The notes below the pieces were generated by a model, which saw only the letters and a program-made list of their open reading frames with translations, was not told where the DNA came from and ran no database searches. Source: Bacteroides clarus YIT 12056 (GTDB taxonomy: Bacteria > Bacteroidota > Bacteroidia > Bacteroidales > Bacteroidaceae). Taken from it: a DNA stretch of 64,000 nt. Below, piece by piece: positions 22,450 to 46,076 of this stretch. Positions within the stretch are counted from its first letter, which is position 1, and every line of letters starts with the position of its first letter. The position numbers were made by a program, and so were the translations under genes. The stretch covers positions 62,001-126,000 of the forward strand of contig NZ_FQWK01000001.1 in NCBI RefSeq assembly GCF_900129655.1. The letters run 5' to 3'.

Positions 22450-23928
22450 TTATTTACCTCCGTTTATCCATGTCTTTTCAGAATAGATATAAGAACCGTC
22501 GCCGTAAGCTTCTTTCACATCTGGATTGCCGATGACTGCACTGTTACCATAGGGTAAACGTTCCGGATAGCGATTGATACCGCTTTGGGTATTTCTCGGA
22601 TTAGTCAGTATTACATATTCTTCACCCATTGCTTTCAAACGGCGTAAGTCGTTGTAAGTTTCCACTTGTTCATCCAGTGCTTGCGCCACATACTTCTGTT
22701 CGAAAAGTTTTTGAAGTGTCGGTGTACCCAAAGACATTGCATAGGCTTTTGCTGTTGTTGCGGCAGCAGGCACAGTGGCTTCATCTCCAAACCAAGTCAG
22801 AATTTCCGTAACAGAAGCCTCTACTGCTTTTTGATACGCTGAGGTGGCATCAATGTTTGAACGTAGTTGAACTTCCGCCTGAATGAAATAGAGTTCGGCC
22901 TTACTCATGATATGAACGGGTTGTGAACCAAATAAATACCATGTTGGCTGATATTGCATTACTCTGGCATCATCTACCGTCTTGGCAATAGTTTCATCTC
23001 CCGGAGTATAAGATTCTCCCAAAGCATTCAGGTAATAATCCAAACGAGGATCATTTGTAGCTTTCATCAGATCTGCTACAGTCTTTGAGGGTGCTGTGTA
23101 CTGACGGCTGAAAACATAGGCACTCCATGGATTGTCGCATGTAGAACCATTAAATCCTGTAACCGTAAATCCTTCGAATCCATTGTCTATAGCTTGTTGT
23201 ACCGCTGTCGCTACTTCAGAAAGCACGTTGGGTTCTACTGCCAGTTTATGCAACAGGTAGCGTGCTTTCAGCGCATGAGCAGCTGCGAGCCATTTAGATG
23301 CGACACCTTTGTAGGCAATGTCTTGGTTGCCGGCATTTGTCATACTTTTACCTTTTTCCAAGTTACTGATGGCTTTGTCGAGTGTAGCCAGAACGCCGGT
23401 ATACACATCCTTCTGCGCATCTAATTTGGGTTGCAGATTACCTTGCCCTTGTACAGCTTCGCTGTAAGGGATATCACCGAACATATCGGTCAGAATACCG
23501 AAGTTTACAGCTTCCAATACTTGTGCCATTCCTAGTATATCAGACTGTCCTACATTACCCGGTACTTCATTCTCTATTTTACTCTGCATTTGGCGTATAT
23601 TCTGTAAGTTGCCATAGATGGAGTTCCATACATTATTAAAGGTGGTAGAAGCTGCCCATTCGCTTGAGTTACGCATTTCGGCAAACATTAATTGATTGTT
23701 ACCCATACCTATCTCTTGTTCGTTGAGTGAGGAAAGGTAAAAAGCAAAGTCACCCGATACGGTACTGAAACCTGTGGACATAATGGCATCTGTCAGCTGG
23801 AGTACTGCCGGGACCGCTTCCGGTGAAGGATGTTCATTGTCCTTGTTGATACGGTCAAATGCATCTTCCGTACATGCTGTCAGTCCGAGAAGAACCACCG
23901 TCAAAGTCATGAATATGTATTTTTTCAT
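22450..23928 (-). CDS. SusD/RagB-like lipoprotein, silent cassette A
   Basis: The 492-residue protein has a lipoprotein signal (MKKYIFMTLTVVLLGLTAC). It belongs to the SusD-like group whose N-terminal half is rich in TPR-like helices (SAWAASTTFNNVWNSIYGN-like region near 85-105, then VASKWLAAAHALKARYLLHK). SusD proteins form the lid of a SusC channel and bind nutrient at the cell surface. It starts 25 bp downstream of the truncated SusC A on the same strand and forms a pair with it. It is probably unexpressed while SusC A lacks a promoter. I start at the ATG at 23928 rather than an in-frame TTG two codons earlier. Confidence 0.9.
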   Translation of the reverse strand: MKKYIFMTLTVVLLGLTACTEDAFDRINKDNEHPSPEAVPAVLQLTDAIMSTGFSTVSGDFAFYLSSLNEQEIGMGNNQLMFAEMRNSSEWAASTTFNNVWNSIYGNLQNIRQMQSKIENEVPGNVGQSDILGMAQVLEAVNFGILTDMFGDIPYSEAVQGQGNLQPKLDAQKDVYTGVLATLDKAISNLEKGKSMTNAGNQDIAYKGVASKWLAAAHALKARYLLHKLAVEPNVLSEVATAVQQAIDNGFEGFTVTGFNGSTCDNPWSAYVFSRQYTAPSKTVADLMKATNDPRLDYYLNALGESYTPGDETIAKTVDDARVMQYQPTWYLFGSQPVHIMSKAELYFIQAEVQLRSNIDATSAYQKAVEASVTEILTWFGDEATVPAAATTAKAYAMSLGTPTLQKLFEQKYVAQALDEQVETYNDLRRLKAMGEEYVILTNPRNTQSGINRYPERLPYGNSAVIGNPDVKEAYGDGSYIYSEKTWINGGK

Positions 23929-23952
23929 AATCAAAATCTTTATGTTGTATGT

Positions 23953-26892
23953 TTAAAAATTAATAGTAAGACCACCGCCGAAACTGGATGTATTGGGAAC
24001 TGAGAACCGTTCGAAATATCCACTCATATTGTTATTACCTTGCGAAGACTCTGGGTCGAAGTTTGGCAGGTTGGCCCAAACAAGTACATTACGGGCAAAA
24101 CCGTAAATTGAAATGTCGAAGATACCAAGCTTGGGCAATTGATAAGTCAAGGTTAAGTCGCGTAACTTGATAAAGCTCGTATCATAAACACCGGATTCGG
24201 TGATGTTGTAATAAGCCTGATAGTAATCGGCCTTATTTACTTCAACCGTGTTGGGTTGTCCCGTTGCTTCGTCTATACCTTCAGCAACCATACTCCCTTC
24301 GTGATAAGGAAGCGACTCTTTGGTAGCACCGAAATAATTCAGGGTCATGTTTGTTCCATGATACATCTTTCCACCTTGTTGCCAACTCCATGTAGTAGAG
24401 AGTGAAAGACGTTTATAACGGCCGCCCAGCGTAAAACCGGTAGTGAAGTCTGGAGAGCAGTTCCCCAAGTCTTGGCTATTGCCCGAGGATTGGGGCAGAC
24501 CGTTCAGTAACAGCAAATTGCCTGCTTCATCGCGTTTGAATCCCAAACCATATATATTCGGATAGGTACATCCTGCCTGTGCACGAATTTGTGGCTCTAC
24601 AAATCCGCCCAACATAATGGATTCTACCCCTGGAGCTAGTTCTATAACCTTGTTGTTTACTTTCGTAAAATTGATACCTAAATTTAAGTCGAAATCTTTG
24701 GCTTGCAGAATAGCAGCATTGATAGAAAGTTCGTGAGCATGTGTACGCATCTTTCCGGCGTTGGTTAACATTTCCTGATAACCTGTCGCTCCATCTACGG
24801 GCACATAAAAAATCTGATCTTCTACATTCTGTAAACTGTATGTGTATTCCACTTTCAGACGGCTGCCAAAGAAATGCAAGTCGGCACCCACTTCATAATT
24901 GGTTGTATTCTGCGGTTTCAATCCTTCATCATACACTCGGTAATAGGGTGTGAAAGTGGATACTCCACTAGGTAGAGGATAAGTAACCGGATAGTAAGAA
25001 TACATGCCTCCGCCATAGGTTGGGGTATAATAATAATTGGCATAATAGTTACCGGCCTGGCCTACCTGTGCGAATGAAGCACGGAGTTTACCGTAGTTTA
25101 ATATTTTATTGTTCTGCAAGAAAGGTAATTTGGTGAATTCCCAACCTAACGATACCGAAGGATAGAAGAAGCTGCGACTACCGCGTGGCATTGTCGACAC
25201 ATAGTCGTTACGTCCGGTTACGGTCAGGTACACCTGATCTTGCCATGACATTGAAAGGCTTCCGAAAAAGCCCACTGTACGTTCTTGTCGCTTATATTCA
25301 CTGGATGTCAATGAAGTGGCATTTCCAATATTGGTAAAACCGGGAAAATTGAAGTTACTGCCGTAATAGTCCCAGTTACGAATGCTCTCATGATTGAACT
25401 CATTACCTAATATTACATTCAGCCTCCATTCATCACTTTTGCCGAATTTTCCGTCAAAGTTAACGGTAAATAAGTTATTGAATACATTGTGCTGCGAACC
25501 GTAATTCTCTATGTCTCCACCTTTCAGTGATGACGTGCTACCCATTTCTCGTACGGTGGCATAGTCTGAAGTCCAGATGTCAAGACCGGCTTGTTCTCTA
25601 ATCTTGAGTGAGAAGTTCTCTCCCAAACCCAAATCTGGCTGATACTCCAAATAGGTATTACCAAAGGCACGGTTAGTATGCTGGAGGTATTCGTTATGTT
25701 CCGCCCACCAATAAGGGTTGGTAAATGAGGTAGAACGGAATAGTATTTGGTTCGTCGGATTGCCCGGTTCATGATTAGGGATTCCCTTCAAATCATATTC
25801 GGCGGGAGCCGAGTAAACCACATTCATGATACCATCATTGGCTCCAGGTGCGGATGTGATTTTGGTAGATGAATAGTTTATGGAGAATCCTGTATTCCAC
25901 TGTGGATTGATTTTCCAGTCTACCAATCCGCGTGCTCCCCAACGGTCCATTCCTGTTGAAGGGATGATGCCATTTTGGTGCGAATTATTCACGCCGAACG
26001 AATAATTTATTCCGTTGATACTTTGTGACAGGTTCACATTGGTGTTTTCAGTAAATCCTGTACCTAAGAAGTCACCCACATTATCATAGATTTGCGGTGT
26101 AGTCCAACCGTCCAGACCGGCCTGCGCGCGTTTGGGATTGTAATATTGTCCTTTGTGCATACCATCTGCCGCAGTATATTGATTGCTCATGTTTCCACCA
26201 TATTTAGGATCGTTAGCCAATTCGCTGATTTTCGGTCCCCAGGTCATAGAGGAAGTCGGATCATATCCTGCGGTAATGCTGTTACCCTGCGAATATATAT
26301 CTTGGTGTTCGAATTTGCGTGAAACCCGTTGCGCACTCAGGTTCGTTGAAATCGTTACACTTGGCTTGTTCATATTGTTTTTGGCACCACGTTTGGTCGT
26401 AATGACAATTACACCGTTGGATGCACGGATACCATATAATGCGGATGCCGCTTGTCCTTTTAGTACATTTACAGATTCTATATCTTCAGGATTAATGTCT
26501 ATGCTGCGATCGGCATAGTTGGCACCCGTTACAGAGTTGCCGGTATCAAAATCAGCAGTTGTATTTACTGGCATACCGTCGATTACATATAGTGGCTGGT
26601 TATTACCGTCAAACGAGCGGGCGCCACGAATTATAATTTGGGAAGAAGCACCCGGTGCACCTGATGATTGTCGGATATCTACCCCTGTCAGCTTACCTTG
26701 TATGGCGCTGGCAAGCGATGTTGTTCCCGCTTTATTCAGTTGTTCTGAATTCAAATCCTGTGCCGCATAGCCTAATGCTTTGCGATCGCGTTTGATACCC
26801 ATGGCGGTTACTACCACTTCATCCAATTGTTCGGCATCGGATTTGAGTATTACTCTCACATTCGGCTTGATAGCCACTTCTTGCGTCTGCAT
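23953..26892 (-). CDS. SusC-like TonB receptor, silent cassette A (5'-truncated)
   Basis: This intact 979-codon body of a SusC/RagA outer-membrane channel lacks signal peptide and most of the N-terminal carboxypeptidase-regulatory-like domain. The frame is open back to 26928 (SSAKTLQISFVGMQTQEV) and soon meets a stop, with no start or promoter upstream. Plug and barrel are complete: DEVVVTAMGIKRDRKALGY, a plug with NPEDIESVNVLKGQAASALY, and the end in GGGLTINF. Joined at the shared 53-nt block to the N-terminus at 40556, it would give about 1058 residues, like the complete copy (1059). It is of the MGIKR type, as is the expressed gene. I interpret it as a silent cassette, not a decayed gene. 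Confidence 0.9.
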   Translation of the reverse strand: MQTQEVAIKPNVRVILKSDAEQLDEVVVTAMGIKRDRKALGYAAQDLNSEQLNKAGTTSLASAIQGKLTGVDIRQSSGAPGASSQIIIRGARSFDGNNQPLYVIDGMPVNTTADFDTGNSVTGANYADRSIDINPEDIESVNVLKGQAASALYGIRASNGVIVITTKRGAKNNMNKPSVTISTNLSAQRVSRKFEHQDIYSQGNSITAGYDPTSSMTWGPKISELANDPKYGGNMSNQYTAADGMHKGQYYNPKRAQAGLDGWTTPQIYDNVGDFLGTGFTENTNVNLSQSINGINYSFGVNNSHQNGIIPSTGMDRWGARGLVDWKINPQWNTGFSINYSSTKITSAPGANDGIMNVVYSAPAEYDLKGIPNHEPGNPTNQILFRSTSFTNPYWWAEHNEYLQHTNRAFGNTYLEYQPDLGLGENFSLKIREQAGLDIWTSDYATVREMGSTSSLKGGDIENYGSQHNVFNNLFTVNFDGKFGKSDEWRLNVILGNEFNHESIRNWDYYGSNFNFPGFTNIGNATSLTSSEYKRQERTVGFFGSLSMSWQDQVYLTVTGRNDYVSTMPRGSRSFFYPSVSLGWEFTKLPFLQNNKILNYGKLRASFAQVGQAGNYYANYYYTPTYGGGMYSYYPVTYPLPSGVSTFTPYYRVYDEGLKPQNTTNYEVGADLHFFGSRLKVEYTYSLQNVEDQIFYVPVDGATGYQEMLTNAGKMRTHAHELSINAAILQAKDFDLNLGINFTKVNNKVIELAPGVESIMLGGFVEPQIRAQAGCTYPNIYGLGFKRDEAGNLLLLNGLPQSSGNSQDLGNCSPDFTTGFTLGGRYKRLSLSTTWSWQQGGKMYHGTNMTLNYFGATKESLPYHEGSMVAEGIDEATGQPNTVEVNKADYYQAYYNITESGVYDTSFIKLRDLTLTYQLPKLGIFDISIYGFARNVLVWANLPNFDPESSQGNNNMSGYFERFSVPNTSSFGGGLTINF

Positions 26893-26928
26893 ACCTACGA
26901 ACGAAATCTGCAGAGTTTTCGCAGAACT
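26876..26928 (-). other. Recombination block, silent copy A
   Basis: This 53-nt block on the minus strand begins AGTTCTGCGAA and ends CAAGAAGT. It is identical at all 53 positions to block C (38228-38280), differs at 5 positions from block D (40757-40809) and at 6 from block B. Homology to the complete SusC gene stops exactly at its upstream edge. I infer it to be the target of site-specific inversion. Confidence 0.8.
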
Positions 26929-27440
26929 ACAAGCTATGTAATGTATTACAAATTAAGTATTTACATATAGTCTATTTTTCATTGTACTTAGTAAGAGCTT
27001 TACAGAAAGTATCCTATTGTATATTAGCATTATTTTGAAACTACCAATATGCTACCAATATTCATTATATATCACTATTATTTAATGTATTATGTATGAT
27101 AATATGGTTCGTTTTGTAGCTATTAGCATATACTAATTGTTTTTGAGAACCAATCTTTGTCAATAAAAGTATATCAATAATTAATATTGAGAGGAAAGAA
27201 GCTTAAAAGATTTTTTTAAGGGGAAAGAAGTTTTTATGTTAAAATAAAGTCATATATATAACTAAAAAAGTATTCTAGTCAATAGAAGATATCACAAAAA
27301 AAGAGAGATGCACCAATTGTCTTGGAAACATCTCTCTTGGGTTTAGCAGGAATATAATTATATTCCCATATTATTACTCTACTATTTGTAGTTAAATATA
27401 CAATTTATTTCGTATATCGCCCTGCTTCAAACTGGTGTAT
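26929..27440. other. AT-rich silent leader of cassette A, no gene seen
   Basis: This 512-bp gap holds no convincing gene. It is the upstream flank of truncated SusC A and runs to the stop of SusD B. A segment near 27154-27172 (AATCTTTGTCAATAAAAG) resembles the TATCTTTGTAAATAAAAA segment in the leaders of cassettes B and C and may be a plus-strand -7 region. A terminator for SusD B lies at 27301-27338. Confidence 0.5.
27301..27338 (-). terminator. Terminator of the cassette B pair
   Basis: A perfect 10-bp stem (27301-27310 with 27329-27338) with an 18-nt loop is followed on the minus strand by a run of seven T. It lies about 100 bp beyond the SusD B stop. Confidence 0.75.
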
Positions 27441-29093
27441 TTACTTTATTTCAATAGCTGTATTGTAATCACTTTCACGATTTGGAATAATCCATTTCCA
27501 GAATGTTTCATCATAATTACCACTTTTGTCAAAACCGAAAGTTCCACTAACGAACTGACTGTAATTACCACCCTCAGCTATAGAAGGGCGGACTACGGGA
27601 TCTCCCCAACGCTTACAGTCATACCAGCTGAAACCTTCACCCCATAATTCTAAACGGCGATACATTTTGATTTCTTTCAACAAATCTTCGCCCGTAGCCG
27701 TACAAGTATATTGTGGGTCACGACCACTGGCAAGATTCAATTCTTCCAGACTATTTTGCGCAGCAGTCGGATCTGTACTCAGATGATAATTAGCTTCTGC
27801 TTCGATTAATAACATTTCTGAAGCTCTAAAAATAGGTTGGCAACCAACAGCGGGTTGAGCCGTAGCTTGGAACTTCAAACTTGCATAAGCATAAGATTGA
27901 GTTGCAGCTGATGCAACGACTCCTTTAGCATATTGATTAGCTTTTACATAGGCCGTTTCATCTGTAAAAGCATTTATATCGTCATCATCTGTATAGATAA
28001 CATCTGTAAAAGCTTTACCTGCTGGTAAGAATGTAGATTCTGTAAGAAACAAGCCTTTACGAATATCCGTATCTGGAAATGACTCTGCTAATTCGCGATT
28101 GATACACACATCAATTCCTTGTTGTGCATAATAACCATTACAGGTCATGAAAAGCTGCCAGCCAAAGTACCAAATTGTTTCAGACGCATCATTGTACACG
28201 CCCCAAATCCATTCGTTATTAGGCTCACAAAAACCTGTACGGTAAGAATTTACATCCATCAAGGCAAAGCCGTCACGTGCTAAAGAGGCATGTGATTTTG
28301 CCGTAGCATAATCCTCACGTGTCAAAGCTGCACGTGCATAAATGGCATGAGCTACTGGTGCGTCCGGGAAACTGACTGTGGAAGCAGCTTCGGAATACAC
28401 ATCATCGCGAGTCAGTCCAGAAGCGTCATATAGTCTGAGTGCTTCATCAAGGTCAGCATAAATTTGCTCATAAGTTTTTGCCAATGTAGCCAAAGCCATA
28501 TCAGTTTCTCCACCAGCATTTGCAACTTCCTTTGTACGCAATACTATACCATCTGCCGCACCATTATTGCTACGTGCCCAAGGAAGACAATAAAACTCCG
28601 ATAAACGGAAAAATGAATAAGCACGGAATGTTAGTGCTTCTGCCTTTAAAAAATCTTTCATTTCCTGTGTACCTTCCGCTTTATCAATTCTATCGATCAC
28701 CGCATTAGCATTGCCAATAATCAAATAATAATAATACCAAGGATAAGAGTCATATATGGAACTACTATTTTGAGTCTGGCTTGATTCATTATTCATGATC
28801 GGTGACCATCCCGGAGACATATAAGGAAAGTTAAGATCCTGTCCTGCATATTCTCCATAAAGAACTTTCATTGTTCCTTCACCGTTAAACATCTGTCCGT
28901 AATAAGCATGTTGCTGTACCATTGTCCGGCAAATACCGTTAATAACAAGTTTGGCATTATCCGTTGTAGAGAAGATGGCATCTCCTTCTGCTGTTTGCGT
29001 AGAATCTGTTTGAAGCCAGCTGTCCGAACAAGAGGTAAGCCCCATAAGACAACCAAGGCCGAATATCATAACTTTTTTGAATGTATATTTCAT
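27441..29093 (-). CDS. SusD/RagB lipoprotein, silent cassette B
   Basis: A 550-residue SusD-family lipoprotein with signal MKYTFKKVMIFGLGCLMGL and lipobox LTSC. It has the classic RagB/SusD layout: an N-terminal SusD-like helical domain, an RAYSFFRLSEFYCLPWA segment near 145, and a C-terminal region with SEMLLIEAEANYHL and the GEGFSWYDCKRWGDP signature near 490. I chose the ATG at 29093; another ATG four codons upstream begins 1 nt after the SusC stop and is possible. It should pair with SusC B, and is probably silent with it in this orientation. Confidence 0.9.
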   Translation of the reverse strand: MKYTFKKVMIFGLGCLMGLTSCSDSWLQTDSTQTAEGDAIFSTTDNAKLVINGICRTMVQQHAYYGQMFNGEGTMKVLYGEYAGQDLNFPYMSPGWSPIMNNESSQTQNSSSIYDSYPWYYYYLIIGNANAVIDRIDKAEGTQEMKDFLKAEALTFRAYSFFRLSEFYCLPWARSNNGAADGIVLRTKEVANAGGETDMALATLAKTYEQIYADLDEALRLYDASGLTRDDVYSEAASTVSFPDAPVAHAIYARAALTREDYATAKSHASLARDGFALMDVNSYRTGFCEPNNEWIWGVYNDASETIWYFGWQLFMTCNGYYAQQGIDVCINRELAESFPDTDIRKGLFLTESTFLPAGKAFTDVIYTDDDDINAFTDETAYVKANQYAKGVVASAATQSYAYASLKFQATAQPAVGCQPIFRASEMLLIEAEANYHLSTDPTAAQNSLEELNLASGRDPQYTCTATGEDLLKEIKMYRRLELWGEGFSWYDCKRWGDPVVRPSIAEGGNYSQFVSGTFGFDKSGNYDETFWKWIIPNRESDYNTAIEIK

Positions 29094-29106
29094 AATTAGT
29101 TTCATT

Positions 29107-32100
29107 TTAGAAGTTTAAATTAAGACCAAGCGTAAATACACGTGCTGCAACGAACGTGTTGTCTTGAGAACCGCTAAAGCTATATTGAGGATTCATACCT
29201 TTACGTGCTGTAAAAGTAGCGGCATTCTCTATTGAGCCATAAACGTTCAAACCACTTAATCCCCATTTGGTAACTACTCTTTTAGGAAATGCGTAATTCA
29301 AGTTGATATTTTTGATGACAAAATAAGAAGCATCCGTCAACCAGCGTGAACTTGCACCATAAGAAGTAGATGCCAAACCTGAAAGGTCGAATTGAGGTGT
29401 ACCGTTTGGATCCAAACGATTAGGAGCATCAGCCGTCATACCTTCCGGAACAGCTTGCCAACCATTCAATACATCCTTATGCAAAGCACTTGGCCCGTTA
29501 GTTGTCGTATACATCAACCCTTGATAGTTATAATCGTACACTTTTCCGCCTAAGGAATACGTACAAAGTACAGAAAGTGTAAGGTCTTTCCAACTTAAAG
29601 AAGTATTGATACTTCCATATACATCAGGTAATGCACTTCCTTGCCAAGCTTTTTCCGCATATGAGGTATTATACACATAGTTCTTATCATTAATAGTAAC
29701 ATAATTGCCACTAGCTTTTAGAGCACTTATAGTATTTTCACTCAGATTTGAATTCGCGGTATAAAGCGCACGTCCATTCATTTGGTCTACTCCAGCATAA
29801 GTATAAGTGTAGAATTCATAAATACTATGTCCTTCACTGTAATTCTGTGTTCCATGCAAAATATCTTTGCCGCCAGGTAGTTTGGTGATTTCATTATGAA
29901 TAGTGGTCAAATTCAAACCAATATTCCACTTCCAATCTTTAGTTCGGATAGCATCTACATCCATAGCAACTTCAAGACCTGTATTACGCACACTACCTAT
30001 ATTAGCAAAATATTGTGACATACCGCTTGGCGTTTCGTCAGAAGTGGCATACCAATCTGTCGCACCAGCAGAAAGTGGATTATATACTGTGAAAAGCAAA
30101 TCTTTAGATGTTTTGTTGAAGAAGTCTAAAGAAAAGTTGAAGCGGTTAAATAGACGACCTTCCAATGCAATATCCAATGAACCGGAAGTTTCCCATTTCA
30201 AATTCTTATTAGGAATCTGGATTTTATAGAAAGCACCGATACCTGCATTTACATCCGAATAGAAAAGCTCTTTATAAGCATAATAGTCAGCACCAGCATC
30301 ATTACCTACCTCGCCATAAGATACACGGAACTTCAAGTTGTCTATCCACGTAAGATTTTTCATAAATTTCTCTTGAGAAATGATCCAGCTTGCACCTAAA
30401 GACCAGAAATTACCCCATGGTTCATAGAAACGTGAAGAACCATCACGACGGAATGAAGCATCTACAAAATATCTCTCAGCAAAATTATAGCGTGCACGAG
30501 AAAGGTAGCTTTCTGTTGTATATTCCTGTGTATAACCATCAATGCTTGTCATCTTGGCAAAATTACTCATTTCTGTGTTACCGCTGACTTTCATTTGTTC
30601 TTTCATCATAAAGTCATAGTTGTAGGAATGCTTGAAAGACTCATGTGCCAATAATACATCTATGTGATGTTGTTTGAAATCATGTCCCCAAGTTAATTCC
30701 TGTGTAAAGCGATATTCGCGAGTACGGGCATGCATTTTAGAAAGACGTCCATTATTGGCAGCTCCATCACCGCAATAAGGATTATTGAAAGCTTTCTCTG
30801 TGTTATTTACATTATAGAGGTCTCCTCTTACTGTTGCCGTAAAATCTTTCAAGAAAGAAACCGTACCATACACCTGACCTGATACAGCATTACGTTCTTT
30901 ACGATTAATATCATTTTTTATTTCATAAATGATATTGCGTCCACTTAAGTATTTATAATTGTTTATATCGTAAGAATTTCCATTCTCGTCAGTAGCAATG
31001 CTTCCATCTTCATTATGGAGCATATAAGGATATACAGGAGCCATTTGCCCTGCTGTATAGAAAGGGTTTGCATAGTATTGGTCGTAGGCATTAGCTTGAT
31101 AATTAGAACCAGACATAGTTCCACTTAAGCTAACCCCTGTTTTAAACCACTTAGTTGGCTGATAGTTTGCTTTTAAGCGAGCTGTAAAACGATCATAGTC
31201 AGAACCTATAATATAGCCTCTTTCGTTTAAGTAGCCAAAAGAAGAGAAAATATCATATTTGTCACCCATAGCATCTGCACTGGCAGTATATTCTTGGCGA
31301 TATCCTGTACGTTCCAGAGCGTCCAACCAATCCAAGTCGTTATACCCAGGTTTTACATTTGCAATGAATTTTCCATTTTCATCGAACATCTCAGCACCAC
31401 TCTTATCGAAAATAGGAGATTTAACGATGGTATTTACATTTTTAGAAGCCTCGAACGCTTGTTCTACAGGCATTCCGCCGTTTTTCTGATAATAACTTTG
31501 CATACCGGAACGCATAGCCTCCATCCATTGATTCACTCCCAGTTTCTCATATTCAGGAATACCACGGGTGTACATACCTTGTTTTACACCTATTCTAAAG
31601 TTCAACTTGTGGCTTTTTCCTTTCTTGGTAGTAATCATAATAACACCGTTAGCAGCTTTATTTCCATAAAGAGCGGCAGAAGATGCATCTTTCAACACAG
31701 AAATAGATTCTATATCTTGAGGATTAATATCATTTAGGCTTCCACCATAAGGGGAACCATCTACAACTATCAATGGGGCATTAGTTCCATTTACAGAGCC
31801 AAATCCACGAATACGAATTTCAGATTTATCGCTACCCGGTTCACCGTAAGAGTTATTCACCTGAATACCAGGAGCAGCACCTTCCAAAGTTCCCGTCACT
31901 TCTGTAACAGGACGCATCTCTAATTTTTTTGAGTCGATAGAAGCTACAGCACCTGTGATAGATTGACGGCTGGCTGTACCATAGGCAACTACCACTACTT
32001 CATCAAGCATCTCACTATCAGATTTTAACGTAACTTTTACATGTGGTTTAATTTCCACTTCTTGTGTCTGCATACCCACGAATGAAACCAACAGAGTTTT

Positions 32101-32157
32101 CGCAGAACTATCAGATGCATAAATATCTCTAAATAAACAACTTATAAATAATAACAT
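29107..32157 (-). CDS. SusC-like TonB receptor, silent cassette B (5'-truncated)
   Basis: This SusC body is complete from the shared block onwards (residues from SSAKTLLVSFVGMQTQEV, at 32109) to the terminal TLGLNLNF. It lacks a proper signal peptide and N-terminal domain. The 16 codons upstream of the block begin with an ATG at 32157 (MLLFISCLFRDIYASD) but are not a SusC leader; they resemble the 15 codons upstream of cassette C. The type is VVVVAYGTA, different from cassettes A and D. The plug has NPQDIESISVLKDASSAALYG. Fusion to the N-terminus at 40556 would give about 1067 residues. I interpret it as a silent cassette awaiting inversion. Confidence 0.9.
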   Translation of the reverse strand: MLLFISCLFRDIYASDSSAKTLLVSFVGMQTQEVEIKPHVKVTLKSDSEMLDEVVVVAYGTASRQSITGAVASIDSKKLEMRPVTEVTGTLEGAAPGIQVNNSYGEPGSDKSEIRIRGFGSVNGTNAPLIVVDGSPYGGSLNDINPQDIESISVLKDASSAALYGNKAANGVIMITTKKGKSHKLNFRIGVKQGMYTRGIPEYEKLGVNQWMEAMRSGMQSYYQKNGGMPVEQAFEASKNVNTIVKSPIFDKSGAEMFDENGKFIANVKPGYNDLDWLDALERTGYRQEYTASADAMGDKYDIFSSFGYLNERGYIIGSDYDRFTARLKANYQPTKWFKTGVSLSGTMSGSNYQANAYDQYYANPFYTAGQMAPVYPYMLHNEDGSIATDENGNSYDINNYKYLSGRNIIYEIKNDINRKERNAVSGQVYGTVSFLKDFTATVRGDLYNVNNTEKAFNNPYCGDGAANNGRLSKMHARTREYRFTQELTWGHDFKQHHIDVLLAHESFKHSYNYDFMMKEQMKVSGNTEMSNFAKMTSIDGYTQEYTTESYLSRARYNFAERYFVDASFRRDGSSRFYEPWGNFWSLGASWIISQEKFMKNLTWIDNLKFRVSYGEVGNDAGADYYAYKELFYSDVNAGIGAFYKIQIPNKNLKWETSGSLDIALEGRLFNRFNFSLDFFNKTSKDLLFTVYNPLSAGATDWYATSDETPSGMSQYFANIGSVRNTGLEVAMDVDAIRTKDWKWNIGLNLTTIHNEITKLPGGKDILHGTQNYSEGHSIYEFYTYTYAGVDQMNGRALYTANSNLSENTISALKASGNYVTINDKNYVYNTSYAEKAWQGSALPDVYGSINTSLSWKDLTLSVLCTYSLGGKVYDYNYQGLMYTTTNGPSALHKDVLNGWQAVPEGMTADAPNRLDPNGTPQFDLSGLASTSYGASSRWLTDASYFVIKNINLNYAFPKRVVTKWGLSGLNVYGSIENAATFTARKGMNPQYSFSGSQDNTFVAARVFTLGLNLNF
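32057..32109 (-). other. Recombination block, silent copy B
   Basis: The 53-nt block equivalent to those in cassettes A, C and D. It keeps AGTTCTGCGAAAACTCTG exactly as in A and C, and differs from them at 6 of 53 positions further on. Upstream homology to the complete SusC gene is lost at its edge. Confidence 0.75.
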
Positions 32158-32589
32158 ATTTATCCTACTTGACTAAAACGTCAACAGAACATATTCAAGA
32201 GGGAATTAACAAGATTATAAAGTTACTCGTGTGTTACCGTACTTCAAAACAAAATGCTGATTCTTAAAATATTACATGCTGTAATATAACTCATATGATA
32301 ACTATTAAAATATACCTTGGTCTTTTATTGCACTATCTTTGTAAATAAAAAGTAATCTAAATATTGGTTGCTATCAAAGATGAGGCATGCTATAATAAAA
32401 GCAGTAGATTTAGATCTCATGTCAAAATAAAACACAGTATTGTAGATGAAAAAACTTTGCATAAGTAGGAAGATAAGAAAGAGAGATTCTTATTTTTTAT
32501 CGTACTTTTGAATTGTTGCTTACAGAAAATCGTTATAAAATTACTATTATAATAAGATTATAATTATCTTTGTATAAAACATGTAATCT
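32110..32589. repeat. Silent leader of cassette B, homologous to leader C
   Basis: Several blocks of this 480-bp gap align in the same order with 38281-38680. These include GACTAAAACGTCAACAGAAC near 32169, CTATTAAAATATACC near 32303, CTATCTTTGTAAATAAAAAG near 32334, TCATGTCAAAATAAA near 32417 and CTATTATAATAAGATTAT near 32544. TATCTTTG near 32335 and ATTATCTTTGTA near 32565 look like plus-strand -7 boxes; the second would drive the ATPase at 32590. No gene is visible in the gap itself. Confidence 0.7.
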
Positions 32590-33717
32590 ATGGCAAAAAT
32601 CAATCCTTTTATAACCAGTGGCTATATTTCGGCAGAGTACTTTTGTGATCGTATCATTGAAACTGCCACATTAACACGCTATATAACCAACGGTAACAAT
32701 GTAGCTTTGATATCTCCCCGCCGTTTAGGAAAAACGGGGCTGATAGAACATTGCTTTCATCAAAAACAAATAAAGGAAGCATATCATACATTCTTAATAG
32801 ATATATATGCGACAAAGAATCTTCAAGAGTTTGTATTTGAACTTGGAAAAGGTATTTTGAACGGTTTAAAGCCACGTGGAAGAAAAGCGTGGGAAGTATT
32901 TCTCAAAAGTTTGTCTTCTCTTCGTACCAGTATTTCTTTTGACTTCAGCGGTAATCCAAGTTGGAATCTGGAGATGGGAGATATAAAGACTCCTACCATT
33001 ACTCTTGATGAAATATTTCATTATTTGGAACAAGCAGATAAACCTTGCTTAATCTCCATTGATGAGTTTCAAGTTATTGCTAAATACCCGGAAAGTGATG
33101 TTGAGGCTACACTACGAACACATATCCAACACTGTTCTAATGCGAAATTTATTTATGCCGGTTCGCAACGACATATGATGGGAGAGATATTTACCAGCCC
33201 ATCACGTCCGTTTTATCAGAGTACGGCTATCATGGAATTATCTCCTATTGATATAGATATTTATACGGAATTTATAAAAAAGCACTTTACGGAGAATAAG
33301 AAAATAATTACTGAGGAAACAGTTCAAGAAGTTTATCAGCGTTTTGAAGGAATAACTTGGTACATTCAATTTCTAGCAAACTCACTTTATGCAATAACTG
33401 CTGAAGGTGAAGAATGTACAGTTGATAAAGTGAATACTGCAGTTGATAATATTTTGGCACAATTGAATTTTACCTATTCTTCGCTTTTGTTTCAACTTCC
33501 ACCTAAGCAAAAAGAAGTTCTTATTGCTATTTGCAAGGAAGGGAAGGCACGGGAGATTACTTCCTCCAAATTCTTGAAAACTTATAAACTCACTGCCAGT
33601 TCTGTACAAGGAGCTATTAAAGGACTTTTGGATAAAGATTTTGTAACTAATGAATTAGGTGTGTATAGCATATATGATAAGTTCTTTGATATTTGGTTGA
33701 AGAAACAGATAAGTTAA
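32590..33717 (+). CDS. AAA/STAND-type ATPase (PF01637-like), passenger of the shufflon
   Basis: The 375-residue protein has a P-loop SPRRLGKTGLIEH near residues 42-54, a Walker B CLISIDEFQVI near 155-165, and a winged-helix-like C-terminus (LPPKQKEVLIAICKEGKARE and LLDKDFVTNELGVYSIYDKF). This is the archaeal-type ATPase family common in Bacteroides, of unsettled role. It is read opposite to the flanking SusC/SusD pairs and lies between silent cassettes B and C. Its promoter region has a homologue next to cassette C, where the ATPase itself is missing. Inversion between blocks B and D would flip this gene too. A regulatory role in switching is possible but unproven. Confidence 0.85.
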   Translation: MAKINPFITSGYISAEYFCDRIIETATLTRYITNGNNVALISPRRLGKTGLIEHCFHQKQIKEAYHTFLIDIYATKNLQEFVFELGKGILNGLKPRGRKAWEVFLKSLSSLRTSISFDFSGNPSWNLEMGDIKTPTITLDEIFHYLEQADKPCLISIDEFQVIAKYPESDVEATLRTHIQHCSNAKFIYAGSQRHMMGEIFTSPSRPFYQSTAIMELSPIDIDIYTEFIKKHFTENKKIITEETVQEVYQRFEGITWYIQFLANSLYAITAEGEECTVDKVNTAVDNILAQLNFTYSSLLFQLPPKQKEVLIAICKEGKAREITSSKFLKTYKLTASSVQGAIKGLLDKDFVTNELGVYSIYDKFFDIWLKKQIS

Positions 33718-33864
33718 AAGGGAAGTAATGATTTGCTTATTAGTAAAAGTAAAAAATGGCACTGTCCATAATTTTGTGTAAATGTAAACGGGATTCAGTT
33801 ATAAGTGGCACTATAAAATACTGCAAAGTATTTATAATTAAGATTGTTCTCTTCGGAGAATACA

Positions 33865-33900
33865 ATAGGCCAACCAGTTTATAATAACTAGTTGGCCTAT
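33865..33900. terminator. Bidirectional terminator hairpin
   Basis: The arms ATAGGCCAACCAGTT (33865-33879) and AACTAGTTGGCCTAT (33886-33900) pair over 15 bp with one mismatch. It lies between the ATPase gene and the convergent SusD C gene. Flanking T runs are weak. Confidence 0.7.
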
Positions 33901-33947
33901 CCTTGTGAAAGAAGAAAATAATCTTCCCCTATGAATATCTTATTCTA

Positions 33948-35384
33948 TTAATTATATTCAGGATTCTGTATCATATTAGTATTAGCATCTATTTCTGCTT
34001 GCGGAATCGGCATGATAGTACGGTAATCATTCCAATTAACCGTAATCAAGTCAGTCGCATTCAAAAAATGATAACCTCCTTGACGTGTCACTTCTCCTCC
34101 TTGGCGTAATATGTCATGCAGGCGGTGTCCTTCCATAACCAACTCTTTCCTACGTTCTTTGCTCACCAAATCTAAAGTAGCAGTAATTTTAACATTTGCT
34201 CGATTTGCACGATTCCTTATAGCAAACAAATAATTATCTGCAACCGTCTGGTCTACTGTGGCCTTTCTCAATGCAGCTTCTGCACCAATCAAGTAAATGT
34301 CAGACAAACGTAACACACGGATATTATTAATTGTTATGGCATCACGTCCAGGATATTTATTAACGGTTTGTTTACTTCCACTCTTATCAGGGATAAGCAA
34401 GCCTAACCGGACATCATTAGGATCCTCATTTAATAAATCCACAAATTCCTTGGTTGCTATAACCGAACCATATTCCGCAGGACTTACAACTGCTCCCCAT
34501 AGTTCACGATCTCCAGAATAAGTTGTGGAAGACAGTGCTAAATCAAATATAGATTCTTTGGTTTCTTCCAGTTGCCATGAAGCTACATATTCTCCGGTTT
34601 CTATCAAACTATACGGGCTGTTTTCCACAACATCAGTGGCGTAAGTGTAAGCGGCGTCATAATCTCCTTTATAAAGATTAACCCGGGCAAGAAGCGCTTT
34701 CACCGCCCATATATTAAAGTGTCCATAGTTCTTGTCTTCACCAATAAAACCCAAAGCCTCAGTCAAATCATCTAGTACAGCTTGATAACCTTCGGCCACC
34801 GTTGAACGAGCAGGCAATTCTGTTGCGGACAACACTTTTTTCACAATAGGAACTCCTAATGATGCCCCATTATCTTTTAAGTAAGGAGCTCCATATGTAA
34901 TTAGTAAGTCAAAATGTGCTAAGGCTCTGATAGCTAAAGCTTCTCCTTTAGAATTCTTGGTTACGTCCGTCATAGGGACCTTACCACTATCTATTGCTTC
35001 CAACAATACGTTAACTCGATTAATAACGGTATAGGGAGGATACCATAAATCCGCCGAGGCGTTTGTCTGGCGATAGGTAAAGCGATAATATTGTTCTGTA
35101 CGGTCACCAGACTTTGAGGTTTGCATATCATCTCCCCCAACTTCTGCCCTTGCCAAGAAATCAGTTCCGTAATAATAATAGTTGTTACCAGCAGCATCCC
35201 GAGCACTGATTAATCCTGCATATGCACCATTCAGCGCAGTTTTGGTATCCTCAGGCGTAGTGATGGCGGTTTCACTTTCCAACGAATCGGAAGGGTATGT
35301 AACTAAATAGTCATTGCAAGAGGCTAAGCACACCAAGCCTGCTATTAGAGCTGTTTTAGATATTATATTTATTGTTTTCATCAT
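33948..35384 (-). CDS. SusD/RagB lipoprotein, silent cassette C
   Basis: The 478-residue lipoprotein begins MMKTINIISKTALIAGLVCL with lipobox LASC. Its domains match RagB/SusD: an N-terminal SusD-like region (LESETAITTPEDTKTALNGA), central TPR-like helices (ALAIRALAHFDLLITYGAPY), and a C-terminal RKELVMEGHRLHDILRQGGE signature. It starts 16 bp after SusC C stops. I chose the tandem ATG at 35384, since an upstream in-frame TTG lies inside the SusC 3' end. It is presumably silent in this orientation, paired with SusC C. Confidence 0.9.
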   Translation of the reverse strand: MMKTINIISKTALIAGLVCLASCNDYLVTYPSDSLESETAITTPEDTKTALNGAYAGLISARDAAGNNYYYYGTDFLARAEVGGDDMQTSKSGDRTEQYYRFTYRQTNASADLWYPPYTVINRVNVLLEAIDSGKVPMTDVTKNSKGEALAIRALAHFDLLITYGAPYLKDNGASLGVPIVKKVLSATELPARSTVAEGYQAVLDDLTEALGFIGEDKNYGHFNIWAVKALLARVNLYKGDYDAAYTYATDVVENSPYSLIETGEYVASWQLEETKESIFDLALSSTTYSGDRELWGAVVSPAEYGSVIATKEFVDLLNEDPNDVRLGLLIPDKSGSKQTVNKYPGRDAITINNIRVLRLSDIYLIGAEAALRKATVDQTVADNYLFAIRNRANRANVKITATLDLVSKERRKELVMEGHRLHDILRQGGEVTRQGGYHFLNATDLITVNWNDYRTIMPIPQAEIDANTNMIQNPEYN

Positions 35385-35400
35385 ATTCTTTTTTTGTTGA

Positions 35401-38325
35401 TTAGAAGCCAATTTCAATACCGAATGTCACACTCTTCAGAGCCGGCAATGCAAACGTCGGGATACCGTTTATTGGTTGTTCCGGGTCTACATTATCATAA
35501 GAAGTCAACGTTAATAGATTACTTCCGGAAACAAAAACTCTGACATTTTCCATTTGCGCGCGACTTACCCATTGTTTAGGAAGCGTGTATGACAGGCTCA
35601 AACTCTTTAAACGCAGATAATTAAGGTCTTTCATAAAACGTGAGCTACCATAATTACCATAGATATAGTTATTGATGCGTCTGGGTACATCCGTAACATC
35701 ACCCGGCTTTTGCCATCTATTCATTTGGTCTATGGACGTATTATAGTAAATATAGTAACCATCTGTATCTGTTATACTGGTTCGCATTGAATCAAAGAGT
35801 TTACCGCCTAAAGAGAAATTGAACAGCATATTAAGTTCCAAACCCTTCCATGACACACTATTTCTCCAACCACCGGTTAATTTAGGATCCGGTTTCCCGA
35901 TAATTACTCTTTGTGCTTTTGAAGGGTCTTTCGTCAATTCACGATTCAGACTTCCATCCTCATTCTCTGTGTTCAGAACCCACTGTTCTTCACCTGTTGC
36001 AGGGTCTACTCCAGCCCATTCACGACTCCACCATGAATAATATGATTCGCCTTCACGTATGATACTTGTGCCGTCAATGATGTCTTTGCCACCATAAAGT
36101 TTAGATACCTTATTGCTGTTATGAGACAGAGCTAAACCTGTATTCCATTTAACAGGTCCATTCTTAAATACATCAACATTAATATCCAATTCAACCCCCT
36201 TATTTGTCATTTCTCCAACATTTTTCAGCATTGATGTAAAGCCAACAACCATTGAAGTTGGTACATCTTGCAACAAGTCTGTTGTTTTACGAGTGTAATA
36301 GTCAAAGGTAATGCCTAATCTATCAAACAATCTTGCATCGAAACCTATATTAAAGTTGTTATTGCGTTCCCACGACAAATCAGGATTAGGAACAGATGCT
36401 GGTGCCGAGCCTGCTATCGTTTGATAATTATAGCCGTATCCATAAAGACTTAAATGTCCGTAAAGGTCATTGGGTAATGTACCGTTAATACCATATGATG
36501 CTCTAATTTTCAAGTCATTGATAAATGAAACATTCTCCATAAACTTTTCTTGAGTCATTCTCCACGCAGCGGAAACAGACCAGAAATTAGCCCAGCGGTT
36601 GTTTGCTCCTAAACGTGAGCTGCCATCTCTACGATAGTTAGCCGAGAAATAATATTTATTGTCATAATCATAATTGACACGTGAAAGTAAAGACAATAAA
36701 TGGTCTTCTGTATAATATGAAAAACCTTCCAAAGGAGTCGAGGCATTAATAGACTCCGGTAATTTATCATGAGGATATCCCGATGCAGTAGCAAGAACAT
36801 ATTCTTTACGTCTATCATCAATATCCCAACCAATCAAAGCGTCAACGTTATGTTTGTTATTGAAAGTTTTGGTATAATTTAAAGTTGTGGACGAATAAAT
36901 ATTATGTTGCTGTACAGGGTAAGTAGCTCCTAAACCATTGTTCATAACACCATTATTAGAGGAAAGCGGCCAATAAGTGACAGATGTGTTATTGATATAG
37001 TCATAGCTAATACTCTCTTTCAAAGTCAATCCTTCAATGATTTGGTAGGATGCCCATAGATTATTGAAGCTTCTGAAAACCTTTGATTCATTTTTATCCA
37101 GGTTAATATCTTCAACAGGATGAGTATGAGTGAAAACCTGTTGCAATACCGGATGCAAATAATAGTCACCATTTTCGTCATATATAGGCATGTTAGGTGA
37201 ACAAACATAATTCACAAGGAAAAATGGGTTAGCATAAGCTGTTCCTTCACTAGTAACCGAAGAATTTTGTTTAGACAATGAAATGTTTGCACCCATTTGC
37301 CACTTATTATCAGCAGAACGATGCACAGCATTGATACGCCCCATAAATCCATCTAAAGAAGAAGTCTTGGCCTTTCCCTCTTCCTTTTTGTATGCAAGTG
37401 ATGCGAAGAACGAATTACGCTCATCTCCTCCCTGAGCCGAGAATTCATAGTTTTGGCTTGAACCGTGCTTACGGAAGAAAGCATCTTCCCAATCTACGTT
37501 ATAGTTTGCATCAGCGTAATAGTCTGCCATTTCTTGTGCATACGCCTTTGCATCAGCATCAGAAGCGGGTCCATTATAGTTTCCTTCACTATCGGGTATA
37601 CCGTAAATGGTTGCTTCGTTATAACAGGCTTCATAGGTCAGTTCATGTCGCTGCTTTCCATTTACACTTTTGCGATTCTTCATAGCCCAATCCGAGAATC
37701 CCCAATTAGCTTTGAAGTTAATTCTAGTTTTGCCCGCCTTGCCATGTTTGGTGGTGATAAGAATGACACCATTAGCTGCTCTTGAACCATAAAGAGAGGC
37801 TGCAGCGGCATCTTTCAAAACCGTAATATTTTCTATATCACTCGGGTTAATAGATGCCATGACATTGAAAGCCTTAGAGTCATTATTTACGGCAGAGACT
37901 GCAATATCTCCCGAAACAACAGGTACACCGTCGATAACATAAAGAGGTTCGTTAGTCGCGTTCATAGAGCCTGTTCCACGTACGCGAATCTGCAAGCCGG
38001 CTCCCGGTTGCCCACTGGTTGAATTAATCGTAAGTCCCGGAGTAGAACCGGCAAGAGCTTCTTCAAAAGACGAAACGGGTATATCCTTTAAGGTTTTATC
38101 ACCACTAACGGAAGATGCGGCACCTGTAAACGAAGATTTCTTCGCGGTACCATAAGCAACTACCATCACTTCATCAAGCATCTCGCTATCAGACTTCATT
38201 ACAACCTTTACATTCGGCTTAATTGTTACTTCTTGCGTCTGCATACCTACGAACGAAATCTGCAGAGTTTTCGCAGAACTATCATATACATAAATATATA
38301 TAAATGAGCAGTTTACAAATTGCAT
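35401..38325 (-). CDS. SusC-like TonB receptor, silent cassette C (5'-truncated)
   Basis: The body is complete from SSAKTLQISFVGMQTQEV (38280 onwards) to the terminal SVTFGIEIGF. The plug carries NPSDIENITVLKDAAAASLYG, and the type is VMVVAYGTAKKSS. There is no signal peptide or N-terminal domain: the 15 codons before the block (MQFVNCSFIYIYVYD, from an ATG at 38325) resemble those of cassette B rather than a SusC leader. Fusion at the block to the N-terminus at 40556 gives about 1026 residues. It is the silent copy nearest the recombinase, so the shortest inversion (about 2.5 kb) would activate it. Confidence 0.9.
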   Translation of the reverse strand: MQFVNCSFIYIYVYDSSAKTLQISFVGMQTQEVTIKPNVKVVMKSDSEMLDEVMVVAYGTAKKSSFTGAASSVSGDKTLKDIPVSSFEEALAGSTPGLTINSTSGQPGAGLQIRVRGTGSMNATNEPLYVIDGVPVVSGDIAVSAVNNDSKAFNVMASINPSDIENITVLKDAAAASLYGSRAANGVILITTKHGKAGKTRINFKANWGFSDWAMKNRKSVNGKQRHELTYEACYNEATIYGIPDSEGNYNGPASDADAKAYAQEMADYYADANYNVDWEDAFFRKHGSSQNYEFSAQGGDERNSFFASLAYKKEEGKAKTSSLDGFMGRINAVHRSADNKWQMGANISLSKQNSSVTSEGTAYANPFFLVNYVCSPNMPIYDENGDYYLHPVLQQVFTHTHPVEDINLDKNESKVFRSFNNLWASYQIIEGLTLKESISYDYINNTSVTYWPLSSNNGVMNNGLGATYPVQQHNIYSSTTLNYTKTFNNKHNVDALIGWDIDDRRKEYVLATASGYPHDKLPESINASTPLEGFSYYTEDHLLSLLSRVNYDYDNKYYFSANYRRDGSSRLGANNRWANFWSVSAAWRMTQEKFMENVSFINDLKIRASYGINGTLPNDLYGHLSLYGYGYNYQTIAGSAPASVPNPDLSWERNNNFNIGFDARLFDRLGITFDYYTRKTTDLLQDVPTSMVVGFTSMLKNVGEMTNKGVELDINVDVFKNGPVKWNTGLALSHNSNKVSKLYGGKDIIDGTSIIREGESYYSWWSREWAGVDPATGEEQWVLNTENEDGSLNRELTKDPSKAQRVIIGKPDPKLTGGWRNSVSWKGLELNMLFNFSLGGKLFDSMRTSITDTDGYYIYYNTSIDQMNRWQKPGDVTDVPRRINNYIYGNYGSSRFMKDLNYLRLKSLSLSYTLPKQWVSRAQMENVRVFVSGSNLLTLTSYDNVDPEQPINGIPTFALPALKSVTFGIEIGF
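38228..38280 (-). other. Recombination block, silent copy C
   Basis: The 53-nt block, identical throughout to block A although the coding sequence immediately downstream differs. It is inverted relative to block D, 2.5 kb away. The core AGTTCTGCGAAAACT is an imperfect dyad (AGTTnT...AnAACT). Confidence 0.8.
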
Positions 38326-38700
38326 CTATTTTTTGCATTTGATTAAAACATCAATAGAACATGCTCCAACGGACATCAACAAGAGTTTTACGTTACCCTT
38401 ATGTACCCATATTCTATGATAAATTATTGATTTTTAGAGTACTAATAGCAATATGCAGTTTTTATTATGACTATTAAAATATACTTTCAATTTTTACTAA
38501 GATACATTTGTAAATAAAAAAAACGATATAAATAGTGGCAGTGAATGAAAATAAAAAACATATTATTTAGGAAACGGTAAACTAAGATTTCATGTAAAAA
38601 TAAATACAGTAATTCAGAGATATAAAAGAATATTATAATAAGATTATGATATTTCTTCCCAAAAACATATAACGTATGACAACAAACAAATAAAGGATGC
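38281..38700. repeat. Silent leader of cassette C, homologous to leader B
   Basis: It aligns in order with 32110-32589: GATTAAAACATCAATAGAAC near 38341, CTATTAAAATATACTTTC near 38471, GATACATTTGTAAATAAAAA near 38501, TTTCATGTAAAAATAAA near 38588, and ATATTATAATAAGATTATGA near 38631. TACATTTG at 38503-38510 is a plus-strand -7 box. After the last block, where cassette B has the ATPase start ATGGCAAAA, this copy has ATGACAACAAACAAATAA, an immediate stop. The ATPase gene appears to have been lost here. Confidence 0.65.
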
Positions 38701-38763
38701 AAATCCGTAGTAAAACATAATAATTCTATCGTGCTTAACTATCAAGCCACTTAGCAAGTTTTA

Positions 38764-38855
38764 ATTCGTTAGACAGCTGTTTCCCTTTCGTTAGACATCC
38801 GTTATCCTTTCGTTAAACAACTGTCTAACGAAAGGGAAACAGTTGTCTAACGAAT
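38764..38855. repeat. 92-bp near-perfect palindrome next to the recombinase
   Basis: Two 33-nt arms (38764-38796 and 38823-38855) pair with a single mismatch around a 26-nt loop. The word TTCGTTAGACA or a close variant occurs five times in both orientations. It lies 65 bp beyond the recombinase stop, inside the segment that every proposed inversion would flip. It could be a terminator for both sides or a protein-binding site. Confidence 0.7.
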
Positions 38856-38920
38856 CAGAGCCAGCAGCTTGGCTGCTTGTTTTTGGGGTACTTCTTGACT
38901 AAAAAAGCCTTATTCCCCAC

Positions 38921-40102
38921 TTATTTTCCAGCAAACGGTGTTGCTTGTTTCATTTTCTCTAAATCATGAATGATGGTCATATCCATAATATTGGTATAAA
39001 CTTGAGTGGTTTTTACGCTCTTATGCCCGAGTAGCTTTTGCACGGTAGTGATATTTACCCCGTTGTATATCAGCAACGTTGCATTGGTATGACGTGCCGT
39101 ATGGAAAGATATATTCTTTGATAATCCGGCCAACTTTGCGAGGGTCAGCAAGTCTTTGTTGACATTTGAGTTATCTCTCAAACGAAAGAAGCCTTCAAGA
39201 TTATCTCGATATTTATTAAGAATTATAATCCCTTTGCCTGCGAAAAGCAAATAAAGGGGTAAACGTACTTCTGTTCCTGTCTTTACCGATTTATATATAA
39301 GCCATGTTTCCTGATTAATATCCACAATATTCTCGGAAGATAAATTTGTAAAATCAGAGTATCGCATTCCTGCATAGCAACAGAACAGAAAAGCATCCAA
39401 AGATTTTTGTAACTTCATATATCTACCCGACAAATTCAATTTCTCCAACTTTTCCAGTTCTTCCGGCACTAAATGGGTATGTTTATTCTCCACTGTTTTT
39501 ATTTTATATTTTCTGAAAGCATATTTCTGTATTTCAATATATTCCTTATTAATAGCTATATTTACGTGGCGTTTCAAATGTTTCATATGTTTTGCAATAG
39601 TATTTGTATGATACCCTTTTAACTGTAGAAAATACTCAAAAGAGGACACAAACTCAAATGTCAGATCAGAAAACGTTATATCCTTTTTGAACTCTTGCAA
39701 TAACATAAGGGTGGAAAGATGATTGCGCTTAGTGCTATTCTTTAAAGATGAGTTTGTGACTTCTTGCTTGAAAAAGGATATAAACGAAGAATTATTCTCC
39801 TGAGTGGTCAACATATTCTTTAGTAGCTCTAAAGATATACGTTTGCCTTGTTGCCATAATTCCAGCTCTTTTTTCTCTATCGCTGCTACAAATTCATAAA
39901 TCAACCGGTTTAGAGCATCTGCATTAGGGTGGTTCTTAACAACCAGCTTTTTGGTATCCCACTGTTCCGGCTTCAAATAGACTCTGGTGGAAAAGTACTT
40001 TTTTTTTCTGTCTAAATAGGCTTCTACCTGTACTAATGCCATACCTTTTTTGTTCAGACACTTCTTCCTGTTATACACAAGACTGTAAATAATTTTATTC
40101 AT
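38921..40102 (-). CDS. Tyrosine recombinase, probable shufflon invertase
   Basis: This 393-residue site-specific recombinase has all catalytic residues: R247 in CYAGMRYSD, a beta-hairpin lysine (K271 or K274) in KSVKTGTEVRLPL, H334 and R337 in HTARH, H360 in LLGH, and the nucleophile Y369 in QVYTN. The N-terminal third has the arm-binding domain of the Bacteroidetes type (YLDRKKKYFSTRVYLKPEQW), then a SAM-like core-binding domain (about 105-200). It is read divergently from the complete SusC gene and lies between blocks C and D. It is therefore the obvious enzyme for inversion, and every proposed inversion carries it along with the promoter. No integration module or att-flanked element is visible. 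Confidence 0.93.
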   Translation of the reverse strand: MNKIIYSLVYNRKKCLNKKGMALVQVEAYLDRKKKYFSTRVYLKPEQWDTKKLVVKNHPNADALNRLIYEFVAAIEKKELELWQQGKRISLELLKNMLTTQENNSSFISFFKQEVTNSSLKNSTKRNHLSTLMLLQEFKKDITFSDLTFEFVSSFEYFLQLKGYHTNTIAKHMKHLKRHVNIAINKEYIEIQKYAFRKYKIKTVENKHTHLVPEELEKLEKLNLSGRYMKLQKSLDAFLFCCYAGMRYSDFTNLSSENIVDINQETWLIYKSVKTGTEVRLPLYLLFAGKGIIILNKYRDNLEGFFRLRDNSNVNKDLLTLAKLAGLSKNISFHTARHTNATLLIYNGVNITTVQKLLGHKSVKTTQVYTNIMDMTIIHDLEKMKQATPFAGK

Positions 40103-46057: not shown

Positions 46058-46076
46058 ATATAAAAGGAATACGTAT

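Follow-up and report, generated by a model that had tools for sequence, protein, structure and literature searches.

A sequence block shared by SusC genes of Bacteroides clarus is very probably the recombination site of a SusC/SusD shufflon

Background

The closest described systems are the SusC/SusD shufflons of Bacteroides fragilis, driven by the invertase Tsr0667, of which Nakayama-Imaohji 2009 is reportedly the original account. Such shufflons are reported in the accounts of PMC4747536 and PMC11852207, and the "Region EE intergenic shufflon" of PMC5729914 is likewise a B. fragilis SusC/SusD shufflon. Activity of Tsr0667 has been reported at three SusC/SusD clusters and in nine further regions.

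Here we analyze a window, i.e., a stretch of 64,000 nt from Bacteroides clarus YIT 12056, in which short blocks recur at the starts of otherwise different susC genes. Judged by its sequence, the locus is a SusC/SusD shufflon of the Tsr0667 kind in another Bacteroides, a type of switch described earlier in B. fragilis. It shares with the Tsr0667 type, as far as the accounts of the latter describe it, inversion of several susC/susD pairs, inverted repeats where susC begins, and one promoter serving alternative genes, while it differs in holding other cassettes and in having only four sites in the genome plus one place with two mismatches. The site reads AGTTCTGCGAA in the window vs AGTTCTGCAAA in genome G016, which has the same leader and site and a recombinase 77% identical; G016 is probably B. 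fragilis NCTC 9343, and Tsr0667 itself is matched here by its description.

The R64 shufflon exchanges the C-terminal part of a gene while the N-terminus stays constant. As in the window, a tyrosine recombinase is described as inverting several segments at asymmetric sites of which one side varies (PMC11852207); the same account credits the R64 recombinase Rci with an additional C-terminal domain that related recombinases are said to lack, and proposes that the asymmetry of the sites limits Rci to inversions. The window site resembles the R64 sfx site in having a conserved core and one conserved arm, the other (upstream) arm being variable, while the R64 genes (pil operon) are unrelated; Rci is set beside the window recombinase by description. 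Finally, the Mpi/Tsr19 systems of B. fragilis are also reported to vary the cell surface by site-specific inversion, but these are described as promoter inversions in which gene bodies are not exchanged (PMC4747536).

Results

The locus contains several susC/susD pairs, each with susC followed by susD, of which one has a promoter (by motif) and a signal peptide (by eye), while the others are truncated at the 5' end. Its parts are as follows.

22450-23934, minus strand: SusD-A (Pfam SusD-like_2)
23953-26928, minus strand: silent 5'-truncated SusC-A (Plug and barrel; NCBIfam TIGR04056 from profile position 54)
26876-26928, minus strand: putative recombination site A, 5' end of silent susC-A; 53/53 with C
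27441-29105, minus strand: SusD-B (Pfam SusD_RagB)
29107-32109, minus strand: silent 5'-truncated SusC-B (Plug, without CarbopepD_reg_2)
32057-32109, minus strand: putative recombination site B, 5' end of silent susC-B; 47/53
32590-33717, plus strand: ATPase gene in the B-C segment (ATPase_2 below its cut-off)
33948-35417, minus strand: SusD-C (Pfam SusD_RagB, SusD-like_3)
35401-38280, minus strand: silent 5'-truncated SusC-C (Plug and barrel, without CarbopepD_reg_2)
38228-38280, minus strand: putative recombination site C, 5' end of silent susC-C; 53/53 with A
38281-40756: smallest putative invertible segment, C x D; in genome G009 the part with recombinase and leader has the opposite orientation vs the window
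32110-40756 and 26929-40756: putative larger invertible segments, B x D and A x D
38921-40102, minus strand: tyrosine recombinase (putative invertase), 393 aa (Pfam Phage_integrase, Phage_int_SAM_5, Arm-DNA-bind_5)
40492-40499, plus strand: Bacteroides-type -7 box TATATTTG upstream of the leader, with TTGC 22 nt before the box
40556-40756, plus strand: constant leader, residues 1-67 of the complete SusC (from sequence; signal peptide by eye)
40556-43735, plus strand: SusC-D, 1059 aa, complete, in the expressed position (Pfam CarbopepD_reg_2, Plug, TonB_dep_Rec_b-barrel)
40757-40809, plus strand: putative recombination site D, inverted vs A-C, within the complete susC; 48/53
43752-45227, plus strand: SusD-D (Pfam SusD-like_2)
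45263-46580, plus strand: two genes after SusD-D (45263-46057 BT_2262-like; 46077-46580 Lipid_bd)

Site D splits the CarbopepD_reg_2 domain (residues 26-107) of the complete SusC after residue 67, and Pfam profiles did not find this domain in SusC-A, -B, or -C. A stop codon lies 24 nt upstream of site A in its frame, and B and C extend in frame for a short distance that contains no leader. Within the 330 nt before A, B, C, D, and the recombinase (coding strand of each), TAnnTTTG, which we take as the Bacteroides -7 promoter consensus, occurs solely upstream of the D leader.

Other elements of the window were noted in passing. The ATPase gene is a weak PADLOC candidate (PDC-S27, E 3.5e-9) with homologues within the shufflons of G152, G041, G009, L013, L015, and L023. 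The upstream flanks of B (32294-32603) and C (38463-38689) are homologous to each other, and the C flank retains a stretch matching the start of the ATPase gene, the gene itself being absent, as if derived from a copy of the B flank. A 53-nt imperfect inverted repeat (81%; 38745-38874), possibly a terminator, lies just 3' of the recombinase gene. Outside the larger ORFs, a 34-nt inverted repeat (97%; 9214-9342) with 61 nt between its arms may be a long hairpin or a small mobile or invertible element.

The exact match of A and C extends 1 nt beyond the block (26929/38281), to 54 nt in total. Counted from the start of the site, identity between the two genes is 53/53 at positions 1-53, 0.66 at 54-120, 0.46 at 121-600, and 0.43 at 601-2800. 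At the 5' edge the match is abrupt, beginning where the truncated genes begin, and homology to D starts at the first bases of A, B, and C. The same codon is used at 16/16 shared degenerate residues inside the A/C block vs 73/207 from codon 101 to the end, and with the peptide SSAKTLQISFVGMQTQE kept constant and codons drawn at the usage of the locus's eight susC/susD genes, all 17 would agree with a probability of ~4e-8; the identity of A and C is thus not due to chance. The block is read in the same frame (SSAKTL...) in all four copies, so that the leader and any of the bodies would join in frame. No fifth comparable block was found in the window (next best places ≤28/53), nor were copies beyond A-D found in the whole genome (18 contigs) with a 111-nt query containing the block (E≤0.001), while a genome-wide search with the 18-nt core, allowing ≤2 mismatches, added one two-mismatch place on another contig.

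These results bear on the initial annotation, which had described an island of identity, 53/53, between 26876-26928 and 38228-38280 within diverged genes, and had placed A, B, and C in direct orientation. The match is as described and ends sharply; body identity of 0.43-0.46 past position 120 is not the extended likeness of ordinary paralogs; and the three copies are indeed direct, such that exchange among them would delete DNA. The set was incomplete, however: its three direct copies stand, but the functional partner, the inverted D, was missing from it.

The recombinase lies between C and D and adjoins the promoter and leader of D in divergent orientation, and every D-A, D-B, or D-C invertible segment contains its gene. 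R247, K274, H334, R337, H360, and Y369 are each kept in 30/30 sequences, comprising the window recombinase and 29 homologues drawn from the 95 genomes with a recombinase match. XerA and IntI4, whose structures are solved, align with the catalytic part, and the protein ends 24 residues past the catalytic Tyr369. This recombinase is presumably the enzyme acting at the sites.

This recombinase-leader module is widespread. A recombinase match (E≤1e-60) was obtained in 95/158 genomes of the genus (68/93 of the better genomes), and none at this threshold in the other 63, of which 25 are ≥90% complete with little contamination. Scanning contigs with the recombinase gave 20 loci, i.e., 19 from Bacteroides or close relatives (recombinase identity 62-94% among them) and one short Listeria match (L024), and the leader stands beside the recombinase in 19/19 of the Bacteroides-like loci; L024 was omitted from the comparison, and G152 and G041 were added. 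In a set of 30 loci including the window, the leader is 450-455 nt from the recombinase start in 29, the exception being L071, in whose stretch no leader was found, and AGTTC(T/C)GC(G/A)AA directly follows the leader in 26 of the 29 leader-bearing loci; L054 has a run of N, the leader of L066 was matched only to residue 46, and L074 has other sequence after the leader. A search of IMG/VR for the arrangements of other strains, by recombinase and by site pattern, gave no relative and no match.

Sites were then compared across 21 sequences (the window stretch, G152, G041, and 18 loci, with L006 omitted as a duplicate of G041) using a peptide-based finder. Site positions 1-11 are identical in 41/41 within-genome pairs, while the upstream side agrees only at the level of chance; these pairs derive from 48 of 51 sites, those dropped being that of L009, in an unrelated gene, and two cut sites, from L013 and L022 respectively. 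Apart from the evenness of the likeness among its copies, the block is ordinary for its kind.

Comparisons between species-level genomes provided the evidence for inversion. Where they align, G035 and G154 are 93-95% identical; a 2.8-kb recombinase-leader segment that ends in sites is inverted between them. Their left gene is identical at 120/120 positions from the site on, whereas its upstream flank has changed, matching at 37/70 positions vs 54/70 to the other flank. G016 and G134 (98-99% identical) carry the same four genes in orders explained by two inversions. Between the window and G009 the recombinase-leader part is inverted, such that the G009 leader points to another gene and the relative of D is silent. 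A C-type gene common to G001 and G005 shows two differences over 2800 positions but has different upstream flanks.

For each of the four window genes, a relative in the opposite state exists in another genome. Relatives of the silent genes are fused to the leader in G088 (A, 83% aa), G152 (B, 92-93%), and G007 (C, 86%), and relatives of D lack the leader in G009 and G012 (69-70%), while two further D relatives are leader-fused as in the window (L139, 72%; L143, 67%). No site was found by pattern in five of the 20 loci looked at (L109, L110, L129, L141, and L144). Separately, the B pair (27441-32109), silent in the window, is leader-fused next to hflX in G152 (C1:234263-238946); the homology of the two copies ends at the SusD stop codon, so the 3' end would have been moved by something other than the site.

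Natural rearrangements also locate the crossover. From G016 to G134 three junctions have changed, and polymorphisms from position 27 onward all stay with the gene, so that the comparison places the crossover within site positions 1-26. In G154, the site now beside the exchanged flank differs from position 19 (the left gene matching at 120/120 from position 1), which would narrow the crossover to positions 1-18, AGTTCYGCRAARACTYTG, if the present neighbor was the partner. The crossover thus probably lies within positions 1-18, a limit set by the single pair G035/G154, in which gene content also differs and the history exceeds one step.

Likeness of sites within and between genomes was compared for 65 sites (starting at AGTT, with 60 nt before and 230 nt after) in 23 of 25 sequences, L007 and L022 being out as they lacked two full sites; L009, L013, L021, G035, and G134 were not in the set. 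Mean identities, and label shuffles that do not model the kinship of genomes, were as follows.

Upstream 60 nt: 0.352 within vs 0.344 between; 644/2000 shuffles; no within-genome excess
Positions 1-18: 0.964 vs 0.861; 0/2000 shuffles; 22/23 genomes
Positions 19-53: 0.885 vs 0.715; 0/2000 shuffles; 23/23 genomes
Positions 54-80: 0.698 vs 0.601; 0/2000 shuffles; 18/23 genomes
Positions 81-110: 0.698 vs 0.633; 0/2000 shuffles; 20/23 genomes
Positions 111-230: 0.467 vs 0.459; 550/2000 shuffles; no within-genome excess

The lack of excess at positions 111-230 argues against shared codon usage. Site A differs from its orthologues at 9/53 positions in G009 and 7/53 in G152, vs none from C in the window, and G009 shows the same island between its own A and D genes, with sites matching at 53/53.

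Discussion

With high confidence, we read the block as the recombination site of a SusC/SusD shufflon. The recombinase would join D, in the single complete susC, to the inverted A, B, or C; the DNA between the joined sites would flip; promoter, signal peptide, and first 67 residues would become fused in frame to another SusC body accompanied by its SusD; and the gene expressed before would turn silent. Of the site pairs in the present state of the window, three are inverted and three direct, and in a simple model inversions alone would reach 12 arrangements within at most four steps, with all four genes expressed at some point and no deletion, A, B, or C being expressed after a single inversion. 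The shufflon is presumably active in this strain.

Inversion does not account for everything. Because the crossover is confined to positions 1-18 or 1-26, one inversion cannot transfer the remaining positions of the block between A and C, and the identity at later positions needs either a slower homogenizing process or coevolution with the recombinase. The identity of A and C beyond the crossover appears best explained by within-genome homogenization of the first ~110 nt of the genes, probably through homologous gene conversion between the repeats. A orthologues share 0.80-0.83 at positions 19-53 vs 0.87-0.91 in the gene body, so divergence is slightly greater at 19-53, a gap too small to resolve sharply when A and C were copied. 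The initial annotation had favored site-specific exchange or gene conversion over common descent of the genes: both site-specific recombination and homogenization fit, the latter with the within-genome excess at positions 1-110, but the working exchange would be that of the inverted D with A, B, or C.

Selection for recombinase binding, with sites coevolving with their own recombinase, could instead have kept the identity from the crossover to position 53. We consider this possible but somewhat unlikely, although it is a live rival up to that position: site variants are genome-specific and the recombinase itself diverges over the 62-94% range given above, but a B. gallinarum recombinase 94% identical goes with six differences from A/C between positions 21 and 31, many of the changes fall at third codon positions, and the excess reaches positions 81-110, past a plausible binding site. 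Homologous conversion fits best. We also propose, tentatively, that besides inversion a second, one-sided process that copies sequence from cassette to cassette within a genome, across the initial ~110 nt of the susC bodies, may keep the sites of new cassettes compatible with the resident recombinase; if so, sites would be domesticated after a cassette arrives. Judged by title and the opening of the abstract, none of the papers listed by a literature search dealt with gene conversion or concerted evolution at the inversion sites of SusC genes, which is no proof of absence.

Less probable is that direct-site exchange among A, B, and C regularly loses or gains whole cassettes, a process we regard as doubtful. 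The flank-plus-ATPase segment, joined to B in the window, is joined to gene A in G009 and G152, and the flank-plus-B unit that parts A from this segment in the window, where it lies between two direct sites, is missing from both genomes; direct-site excision or insertion would fit this but does not prove it. The same junction could, however, arise from inversion permutations with gene loss elsewhere, B in G152 stands at the place of D with homology that stops at the SusD end rather than at a site, and the site asymmetry of the R64 shufflon is held to block direct exchange (PMC11852207).

It is very improbable that the block is a conserved SusC domain motif (a CarboxypepD_reg-like strand, SSAKTLxxSFVGM) kept by selection on the protein in the absence of recombination. 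The SusC proteins compared do conserve the peptide, SFVGM/SYIGM recur, and the block lies within the CarbopepD_reg_2 domain of D, but the degenerate codons agree at 16/16 in A and C, the 5' edge is abrupt at the starts of truncated genes, and genomes 93-99% identical differ by inversions ending at the block. Conservation at the protein level alone is refuted by the inverted segments together with the synonymous identity. Scarcely credible at all is a recent duplication of one cassette followed by fast divergence of the bodies under diversifying selection, for although A and C are both SusC genes in direct orientation, they share 43-46% of nucleotides beyond position 120 and agree in codon at 35% of the degenerate residues they have in common, and A has its own orthologues (98%; G009, G152) as does C (86-87%; G001, G005, G007), making both old separate genes; simple duplication or plain paralogy is rejected as the identity does not extend over the genes.

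Conclusions

Read as the site of a SusC/SusD shufflon, the identical block is resolved to a defined recombination site whose crossover natural rearrangements map to 18-26 nt, and the same recombinase-leader module recurs across Bacteroides with exchangeable receptor cassettes. The locus and its relatives offer a set of natural junctions for asking why the array survives with direct repeats of the site, and by what means a cassette gains a working site after its acquisition. SusC/SusD switching is reported to bear on the use of nutrients, on sensitivity to phages, and on host immunity (PMC12548429, PMC10939037).
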